NCBI RefSeq assembly: GCF_010501095.1
Contig: NZ_QVMP01000001.1
Coordinates: forward strand, 186,001-250,000
DNA: 64,000 bases
Direction of reading: 5' to 3'
Source: Dysgonomonas sp. 520
GTDB lineage: Bacteria; Bacteroidota; Bacteroidia; Bacteroidales; Dysgonomonadaceae
Translations under genes and position numbers: made by a program
Notes under the pieces: generated by a model
What the model saw: only the letters and a program-made list of their open reading frames with translations
What the model was told of the DNA's origin: nothing
Database searches by the model: none
Part shown: positions 9,115-53,958 of the stretch, piece after piece
How the letters are laid out: each line of letters begins with the position of its first letter
Numbering within the stretch: position 1 is the first letter of the stretch

Positions 9115-9336
9115 ATGTATTGGACTTTAGAATTAGCATCGAAACTGGAAGATGCACCATGGCCCGCAACAAAAGAAGAGTTGATTGATTATGCTCAGCG
9201 TTCGGGTGCGCCTCTTGAAGTAATAGAGAACTTGCAAGAACTTGAAGATGAGGGTGAAATATACGATACAATCGAAGATATTTGGCCTGATTATCCAAGT
9301 AAGGAAGACTTTTTCTTTAACGAGGATGAGTACTAG
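9115..9336 (+). CDS. DUF2795 family protein
   Basis: DAPWPATKEELIDYAQRSGAPLEVIENLQEL...DEGEIYDTIEDIWPDYP. Confidence 0.8.
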   Translation: MYWTLELASKLEDAPWPATKEELIDYAQRSGAPLEVIENLQELEDEGEIYDTIEDIWPDYPSKEDFFFNEDEY

Positions 9337-9422: not shown

Positions 9423-9518
9423 CATCTATGTATCAACCAATTAAAACCACAAACAATAACCCACCAAGCCAACAGTGTGTTAAATACACTTAAATTGAAA
9501 AATATTTTTTTCAAAACA

Positions 9519-9550
9519 TGTTGTACAACATAAAAAACTTCATATCTTTG
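9519..9550 (+). promoter_or_regulatory. Orphan Bacteroidetes-type promoter
   Basis: TGTTG, 19-bp spacer, TATCTTTG (9543-9550); no substantial ORF follows. Confidence 0.65.
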
Positions 9551-9556
9551 TACTGT

Positions 9557-9627
9557 GTTTTTCATGGTATTAGATTTAAGGTTAACAATTAAGATTGGGG
9601 TTGTCGTGAGACAACCTTTTCTTTTTT
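9557..9627 (+). ncRNA. Putative ~70-nt small RNA with intrinsic terminator
   Basis: Promoter at 9519-9550; GGTTGTC-GTGA-GACAACC stem (9599-9616) followed by TTTTCTTTTTT. Confidence 0.6.
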
Positions 9628-9744
9628 ATAATTATCTGGTACTGAAGTAGCGTTGTCTATTTTTTTTAAGACCATATGTAACCAATCGGTCAACATAAAC
9701 TCCATTTTTTAATAGTACAGCTATAAAATAGCTTATTTTATTTT

Positions 9745-11760
9745 TCAAAATGATTGCCTGAACGAACAACCGGCTTTCCATTCGGAACAACCATAAGCGG
9801 TTTTTCCTTTCAGTATTTTTCCTTTTCCGCATACAGGGCAAACATCTCCTTCTTTTACACCTGCCTCTTTCGCTTCTTTTTTCTTTGCTGCAGAAGCCTT
9901 TTTCTCTCTGGGTTTTGAAGGTTTCTTCTCTTTCTTCGGCTTTTCTTCTTCTTTCACAACCTCCTCAATCGTGATGCTTCTGCCCCAATCATTTTTAACG
10001 TTATGCACTATGCCCGCAACCATTTGCTTCAATTCGTCAAGAAAAGCCTTTGGCTCGTATTCGCTTTTTTCAATCTGGCGAAGTTTCTTCTCCCAAATAC
10101 CTGTCAATTCGGCCGACTTAAGCAGATCTTCCTTTATTGTCTGTATCAACTCAACCCCGGTAACCGTAGCATAAAGATTTTTCTTCTCTTTACGAATATA
10201 GTTTCTTTTGAACAAAGTCTCTATAATATTCGCACGTGTAGACGGGCGACCGATACCGTTTTCCTTCAGGGCATCACGAAGTTCTTCGTCGTCAACCAAC
10301 TTTCCGGCGGTTTCCATAGCACGCAGAAGAGTGGCTTCGGTATAATATTTTGGAGGTGTAGTCCATTTCTCTGTCAACGATGGCTCATGTTCTCCCGACT
10401 CACCTTTTTCAAATGTGGGCAGGATATTTTCATCGTCTCTATTTTCGTCCTCATCCTGCTGTGCAGAGTGTTTCTTCTCGAAAACAATTCTCCACCCCGC
10501 ATCAAGAATCTGCTTTCCTGTTGTCTTAAATTCTATCTTATTTGCTTCGCCAAGTACGGTGGTAGTCGATATTTTACAGTTCGGATAAAAAACAGCGATG
10601 AAACGACGGGCAACAAGATCATACACTTTCCGCTCGTTTTCGTTCATATTGTTGGCTCTTACCCCTGTCGGGATAATGGCATGGTGATCCGTAACCTTAC
10701 TGTTATCGAAGACTTTTTTCGATTTCAGTATTTTTTCCCCTCCAAGTATCGGCGATGTCAAATCCTCATAGCCGATCAATCCTTTAAGAGTATCAGGCAC
10801 TTTAGGGTAGATGTCATCACTCAGGAAGGTTGTGTCTACACGGGGATATGTCGTCAGTTTCTTCTCATACAACGACTGAATGGTTTTCAAGGTATCTTCC
10901 GCCGAAAAAGCAAACTTCTTGTTACACTCTACCTGCAAGGATGTCAAATCGAACAAACGAGGCGGAGACTCCTCTCCTTTCTTGATCGTCACATCCGTTA
11001 TTTCAAACAAAGAGCCTTTTATTTCCTCAAGAAATTTCTCACCCTCTTCTTGTGTCGTAAACCGTCCTTTTGTAACCGAAAACGTAGTCTCCCTGTACAA
11101 GGTCTTCAATTCCCAATAAGGCTCGGGTTTAAAGTTCTCTATTTCCAATTGACGGTTCACAATAAGGGCAAGTGTAGGGGTCTGAACCCGCCCGATAGAC
11201 AATACAGACTTGTTCTGCCCGTATTTGATCGTATAGAGCCGTGTCGCATTCATACCCAGCAGCCAATCGCCAATAGCTCTGGACAAACCAGCTTCATAAA
11301 GTTTGGTAAAATCGGATTGGTCTTTCAACTTCTGAAAACCTTCTCTTATCGCATCTTCTGTCAGCGATGAAATCCAAAGACGCTTCACAGGGCATTTGCA
11401 CCCTGCTTTTTGCATCACCCACCGTTGAATAAGCTCCCCTTCTTGTCCGGCATCACCACAATTGATAACCTCATCGGCATTCTGAACCAGCGACTCAATA
11501 ACCGAAAACTGCTTTGCAATGCCGTCGTTATTTATCAGCTTTATACCAAAGCGAGGGGGAATCATTGGCAAGACTTCTAATCGCCAGCTTTTCCATTGCG
11601 CATAATATTCGTGAGGCTCTTTCAACGTGCAAAGATGTCCAAAAGTCCATGTCACCTGGTAGCCGTTTCCTTCAATGTATCCGTCTTTCCGGTTTTTGGC
11701 TCCCAAAACATTCGCTATTTCACGTGCAACACTTGGTTTCTCTGCAATACAGACCTTCAT
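9745..11760 (-). CDS. topB: DNA topoisomerase III
   Basis: MKVCIAEKPSVAREIANVLGA...QTPTLALIVNRQ...GIGRPSTRANIIETL. Confidence 0.95.
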   Translation of the reverse strand: MKVCIAEKPSVAREIANVLGAKNRKDGYIEGNGYQVTWTFGHLCTLKEPHEYYAQWKSWRLEVLPMIPPRFGIKLINNDGIAKQFSVIESLVQNADEVINCGDAGQEGELIQRWVMQKAGCKCPVKRLWISSLTEDAIREGFQKLKDQSDFTKLYEAGLSRAIGDWLLGMNATRLYTIKYGQNKSVLSIGRVQTPTLALIVNRQLEIENFKPEPYWELKTLYRETTFSVTKGRFTTQEEGEKFLEEIKGSLFEITDVTIKKGEESPPRLFDLTSLQVECNKKFAFSAEDTLKTIQSLYEKKLTTYPRVDTTFLSDDIYPKVPDTLKGLIGYEDLTSPILGGEKILKSKKVFDNSKVTDHHAIIPTGVRANNMNENERKVYDLVARRFIAVFYPNCKISTTTVLGEANKIEFKTTGKQILDAGWRIVFEKKHSAQQDEDENRDDENILPTFEKGESGEHEPSLTEKWTTPPKYYTEATLLRAMETAGKLVDDEELRDALKENGIGRPSTRANIIETLFKRNYIRKEKKNLYATVTGVELIQTIKEDLLKSAELTGIWEKKLRQIEKSEYEPKAFLDELKQMVAGIVHNVKNDWGRSITIEEVVKEEEKPKKEKKPSKPREKKASAAKKKEAKEAGVKEGDVCPVCGKGKILKGKTAYGCSEWKAGCSFRQSF

Positions 11761-46242: not shown

Positions 46243-46677
46243 ATTATTTTGTTAACAATTTTTAACGATGGTATTTTTTGCTTTATTCTGCGTTTTTTTG
46301 TAAATTTATGTAATAATTCATCTATAGAGTTGTGTCTGAAAAGATACACACCAACCGAGCCGAGAAAGCCACGGTGGTCCAATGATGAGGTTAACAAATT
46401 AACAAAATATTTCTCATGGGAAACAGTAAAAATTCAATCAGCAAAATAATATTTTCATCTGTATACAACAGAGAGAATATTGTTATTTTCTTTTATATAA
46501 GAAGCTTAATATTACATCATATATTAGCTAATCCTCCACCTTAATATTTCTTGATTTAGATAGAATTATTCTGTCTATTACACTCTATTTTCTAAGATGT
46601 TAGGAGAATAGATTTTATTAATTCTGTCAGGAGAAATTTCTCTTGATCAGAGGAATATATAACTAAAACATAAGTTT

Positions 46678-53828: not shown

Positions 53829-53898
53829 AGCCAATTTTCGTAATAAGAAAAATATCTTTATTTATTTGCACGACAGATAGTTAAAGGTGCGGTTTTAC

Positions 53899-53958
53899 TT
53901 GGTAGAGCAAAGGACTGAAAATCCTTGTGTCCCCGGTTCGATTCCTGGTGGCACCACT
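53899..53958. repeat. Right attachment repeat of island 1 / left junction of element 2
   Basis: 60-bp identity with tRNA-Phe 3' portion. Confidence 0.92.

Follow-up and report, generated by a model that had tools for sequence, protein, structure and literature searches.

A FopS-family small RNA gene of Dysgonomonas sp. 520 and the Cur-type palindrome in its promoter

FopS was first described in 2025 in Bacteroides thetaiotaomicron, as a family of base-pairing sRNAs that repress translation of SusC (PMC11697453). That species has 14 copies, with sigma-ABfr promoters, a single-stranded 5' seed and a terminator hairpin, and northern blots detected RNAs of ~65 and ~70 nt; small open reading frames at these loci were excluded by the original authors (PMC11697453). 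Repression of SusC-type mRNAs through pairing with FopS was established by compensatory mutants and in-vitro translation, and according to the same paper this repression takes place under substrate limitation (PMC11697453). The RNAs are bound by the RRM protein RbpB, and their levels are anticorrelated with those of GibS, which is highest on mucin (PMC11697453). Bile salts induce FopS via a regulator that the authors leave unnamed (PMC11697453); the control of FopS transcription was left open in the published work.

The carbohydrate regulator Cur (BT4338) has the published consensus wwwTATGTTnTAnAACATAwww (PMC6989115; PMC3878776). Cur activates the B. thetaiotaomicron sRNA MasB (BTnc201) (PMC10994844), and some sRNAs of this species lie near Cur sites, FopS not being named among them (PMC10294740).

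The FopS gene in the window

The sequence we analysed, here called the window, is a stretch of 64,000 nucleotides from Dysgonomonas sp. 520 (contig NZ_QVMP01000001.1, positions 186,001 to 250,000). Reading the sequence directly, we found a promoter, a predicted ~74-nt RNA and an intrinsic terminator at 9519-9628. A first-pass annotation had proposed an autonomous sRNA gene of ~70 nt at this location, leaving aside whether it belongs to a named Rfam family; its promoter and terminator are both where it placed them. For family assignment we used cmscan against Rfam 15, which settled the question: the element matches RF04319 (BTncRNA_FopS) over the full length of the model. The proposal of an autonomous sRNA gene is supported. 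The features are as follows.

9517..9532, unstranded: Cur-type box CATGTTGTACAACATA, with 13/14 specified bases of TATGTTnTAnAACATA; it runs from -38 to -23, which overlaps the -33 region, and includes the TTG at 9521-9523
9543..9550, + strand: -7 element TATCTTTG (TAnnTTTG), at the same offset in 117/120 FopS copies
9555..9628, + strand: FopS sRNA, Rfam RF04319, model positions 1-71 of 71, 75.9 bits vs a gathering score of 56
9555..9585, + strand: GTGTTTTTCATGGTATTAGATTTAAGGTTAA, the conserved 5' region, a presumed seed by analogy with PMC11697453; its first 27-30 nt hardly vary between families
9597..9628, + strand: intrinsic terminator, hairpin 9597-9618 plus T tract; supported by the terminator scan and by compensatory changes in the stem among 119 distinct copies

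Two other families were rejected, each having only a partial match: GibS (RF04182; 40.4 bits vs a gathering score of 115, without the R2 region) and BTnc231 (RF04180; 25.1 bits vs 80.4).

The promoter consists of TTG at 9521-9523, 19 nt, and then TATCTTTG at 9543-9550. The proposed -7 element is solid, as shuffling predicts just 0.8 occurrences of TAnnTTTG at this fixed offset, rather than 117. The TTG taken by the first-pass annotation for a -33 element is indeed present, but lies inside a 14-nt perfect palindrome that was missed; the TTTG typical of this element is absent from the window copy, which has just the TTG within the palindrome. Together, the sigma-ABfr-type -7 box and the terminator bound an RNA of ~65-75 nt. 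A sigma-70 promoter scan, which does not cover Bacteroidota, found nothing on the element's strand.

Downstream of the promoter, GGTTGTC-GTGA-GACAACC is followed by TTTTCTTTTTT. This hairpin is the sole site in the terminator scan, with nine pairs when G-T is allowed and 0.1 sites expected per shuffle. The Rfam model places the 5' end at 9555 instead of the 9557 originally predicted, and the 3' end, at ~9628, is close to the predicted 9627. The leader, thought to be conserved and unpaired, is strongly conserved, in that the 5' 31 nt agree with the FopS model consensus and with relatives (the R1/R1' seed), but it is unpaired only for the most part, with a mean unpaired probability of 0.69 over nt 1-31. 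The fold of the whole RNA has a z-score of -2.0.

Covariation is evident in 119 distinct copies picked solely by their 5' 30-mer: each of the six consensus stem pairs is standard in 111-119 of these copies and is represented by 3-6 standard types; double changes are frequent. The ATG at 9564 does open a frame through the terminator, as had been noted, and ends at a TAG ~28 codons on; among otherwise matching copies, however, this ATG is ATA in 65 of 181, and we reject the coding reading on this ground. Given the fixed-offset -7 box, the compensatory stem changes and the loss of the ATG, we conclude that the element is a noncoding RNA gene. Its neighbours are a plus-strand DUF2795 gene (9115-9336) and a topoisomerase gene on the minus strand (9745-11760), so it stands alone in its intergenic region. 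With high confidence, which does not extend to the Cur step discussed below, we regard 9517-9628 as a gene for a trans-acting, base-pairing sRNA of the FopS family. The sRNA itself adds an unexceptional member to a family that was named recently and is already described.

Elsewhere in the window, Rfam reports a SAM-I/IV riboswitch (46313-46419, + strand, 51.4 bits vs a cutoff of 41.1) and a weak tRNA-like match (53886-53956, + strand, 32.6 bits vs a cutoff of 29) that was not called by ARAGORN.

Copies, targets and protein partner

The host genome has four FopS copies over the cutoff, which resemble one another between the -7 box and the T tract and differ on either side. One paralog (L004:1501-2005) is convergent with its neighbour, the RNase P RNA gene. 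Within the host's family, 99 of 101 genomes carry FopS over the cutoff, and in an even draw from the order it occurs in 35/198 genomes and 25/151 genera. In a draw of 297 genomes across the phylum, FopS was not found outside the order, the matches being the window's genome and two others from the same order. The 2025 paper reported FopS in Bacteroidaceae and one phage (PMC11697453); named contigs widen this range to Dysgonomonadaceae, Muribaculaceae, Barnesiella, Parabacteroides and Paludibacteraceae, among others. There are also matches in 17 viral contigs (L199-L215), four phage records and 19 plasmid records (H5-H23), in line with that paper's suggestion of spread by phages (PMC11697453).

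In Dysgonomonas sp. 521, four FopS copies occur in one orientation within less than 2 kb (L044:3330-5134), and the four copies of genome G011, from the same family, have equal spacing, which suggests that the gene was duplicated locally together with its promoter box. In six relatives, both FopS and the DUF2795 gene are absent from the neighbourhood of the topoisomerase, and none of the FopS places listed across the family adjoins this gene. The genomic location is therefore lineage-specific. A similar pairing on a Muribaculaceae contig (L077) is possibly a coincidence.

As to targets, a SusC search of the host genome gave 41 hits in all, of which 22 exceed the curated cutoff. The seed contains UUUUUCAU, which is complementary to AUGAAAAA. 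In duplex energies compared with those of shuffled seeds, SusC start regions have a mean z of -1.33 and ORF starts of the window 0.00 (p 2.7e-5). In a narrower duplex test the enrichment of SusC over SusD was weak (-2.39 vs -1.60, p 0.04), and part of it is due to the generic AUGAAAAA start. Individual SusC genes have a 12-nt perfect seed match beginning 25 nt upstream of the start (L139) or an 11-nt match spanning the start codon (L153). A genome-wide search for near-full-length antisense targets, using 28- and 22-nt patterns with at most 3 mismatches, returned only the four sRNA copies. The enriched but modest complementarity of the seed to SusC starts agrees with the published mechanism, short of proof in this organism.

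The host also encodes one RRM protein, of 104 aa, which matches NCBIfam Rbp_regulator. The RRM_1-positive set comprises 143 genomes; the order sample includes 35 genomes with FopS, and 12 of them lack an RRM_1 match at E 0.001 (G120, G124, G140, G167, G186, G207, G208, G210, G233, G237, G249 and G271; loci L226-L240). Completeness is 99% in eleven of these 12 genomes, and the FopS seeds read from this set are intact, agreeing at 29-30 of 30 positions. The retention of FopS in genomes with no detectable RRM protein suggests that RbpB is a modifier rather than a required partner.

Cur-type boxes at FopS promoters

The palindrome that encloses the TTG, ATGTTGTACAACAT at 9518-9531, matches the published Cur/BT4338 consensus base by base, including the N4 spacing and the central TA. 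Exact copies of its core, ATGTT-N4-AACAT, are present upstream of FopS in 68 of 180 distinct regions, vs 0.12 in shuffles, and when spacers of 0 to 10 were compared in these regions, N4 alone was enriched. Boxes matching at least 12 of 14 positions lie upstream of 50/127 FopS copies, where neighbouring 100-nt tiles predict 0.4. Many FopS copies have no Cur box, including the host's own copy at L004. By one exact-pattern search, the whole genome contains six exact Cur-type sites, two of them at FopS genes, and the reversed control pattern occurs once. Of the other exact sites, one separates a SusC gene from a divergently oriented gene for a GntR-type regulator (L246 ~1500), one is upstream of a gene resembling a heterodisulfide-reductase subunit (L248 ~1500), and one precedes the gene for a small secreted protein and is followed after 33 nt by a TATCTTTG box (L250 ~1500).

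The boxes occur in two layouts. In 67 promoters the box is at ~-36, and none of the 67 has the TTTG -33 element; in 24 promoters it is at ~-68, and 20 of these keep TTTG. Both are found in the host genome: the box is over -33 in the window and C18 copies and at ~-68 in the C11:45067 copy. In 24 promoters of the first layout, the sequences upstream of the box share less than 55% mutual identity, so simple common descent is a poor account of the shared box; per-column conservation in these 24 promoters is inflated because the sites were selected by score.

One host protein (L252:1171-1875) combines cNMP-binding and HTH_Crp_2 domains, and a 13/14 box lies upstream of its gene; BT4338 was likewise reported to have an upstream box of its own (PMC3878776). 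On these features the protein is a candidate Cur. The main text of the FopS paper does not mention the palindrome and calls the regulator unknown (PMC11697453). A Cur box at FopS promoters thus appears to be unreported, although earlier mention in supplements or subscription papers is possible.

We consider it somewhat probable that Cur, the CRP-like master regulator of carbohydrate use, binds the FopS box and controls these genes. A distinctly less probable explanation accepts the FopS assignment and has another factor bind the palindrome, e.g., a bile- or stress-responsive regulator. Similar palindromes can be read by other dimeric regulators, and the induction of FopS by bile salts runs through an unidentified regulator (PMC11697453); against this stand the base-by-base agreement with the Cur consensus, spacing and centre included, and the precedent of MasB as a Cur-activated sRNA (PMC10994844).

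Proposed control and its counterparts

By analogy with B. thetaiotaomicron, we infer pairing with SusC mRNAs, a block of translation and binding by the RRM protein. RNA polymerase with sigma-ABfr would start at ~9555 and stop at the hairpin and T tract, releasing the ~74-nt RNA. The largely single-stranded 5' half would pair with the translation starts of mRNAs, chiefly those of SusC-type glycan importers, and ribosome entry would be blocked; the 3' hairpin would serve as the terminator. The RRM protein may tune FopS, as RbpB does in B. thetaiotaomicron. With a Cur box in the promoter, FopS transcription probably answers to carbohydrate availability.

We lean slightly towards repression of the window copy by Cur over activation, because the box lies over the core promoter. 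FopS would then be on when preferred sugars silence Cur, and off when Cur is active. E. coli offers an analogy, since CRP governs Spot 42 by the same logic of repression. For the boxes at -68, activation is the reading suggested by their position.

Activation of the window copy as well, such that FopS rises under carbon limitation and importers lacking substrate are shut down, is rather unlikely in our estimation, but has evidence to recommend it. It would fit the repression of SusC by FopS when substrates are limited (PMC11697453) and the activation of MasB by Cur (PMC10994844). The box also replaces the -33 element (TTTG 0/67), as expected for an activator-dependent promoter, and the -68 layout resembles an activator site. 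On the other hand, a box with its centre near -30 overlaps the core promoter, a usual place for a repressor, and Cur-bound genes include 140 that are Cur-repressed vs 35 that are activated (PMC6989115). The anticorrelation of FopS with GibS, highest on mucin (PMC11697453), where the Cur target fusA2 is induced, also argues against activation. A short peptide gene or the leader of a longer mRNA is highly improbable: the frame opened by ATG 9564 through the terminator is outweighed by the replacement of that codon in relatives, the compensatory stem changes, the opposite strand of the next downstream gene and the exclusion of small open reading frames at the B. thetaiotaomicron loci (PMC11697453).

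We give slightly better than even credence to the broader proposal, in which FopS sRNAs belong to the Cur regulon across Bacteroidales and a Cur-FopS feed-forward loop couples the control of glycan import at transcription to that at translation, with two promoter layouts that may give opposite responses to Cur within one genome. Conservation of the Cur box would connect the main transcriptional regulator of carbohydrate use to a main post-transcriptional repressor of SusC importers and provide a Bacteroidales counterpart of enteric CRP-sRNA circuits.

The closest known system is FopS of B. thetaiotaomicron, which shares the 5' seed, the terminator hairpin, the sigma-ABfr -7 box, the length, the presence of multiple copies and an RRM protein in the genome. 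It differs in having 14 copies vs four here, in a host that, unlike ours, belongs to Bacteroidaceae. Moreover, the Cur box is over -33 in the window, whereas in the examined Bacteroides copies scoring at least 12 it is at ~-68 and TTTG is kept. GibS has the 5' R1 seed region in common with the window RNA, but the window RNA lacks R2 and the longer 3' part, and the GibS promoter is of another type. MasB is also an sRNA with a Cur site upstream; it is distinct from FopS and acts on another target (BT_1675), and its control by Cur was demonstrated by deletion, whereas that of FopS is predicted from sequence. Spot 42 with CRP is alike, if the repression reading is right, in that a CRP-family regulator controls an sRNA whose targets are catabolic and uptake genes, but there is no homology, the regulator sites are different, and the published FopS system uses no Hfq.
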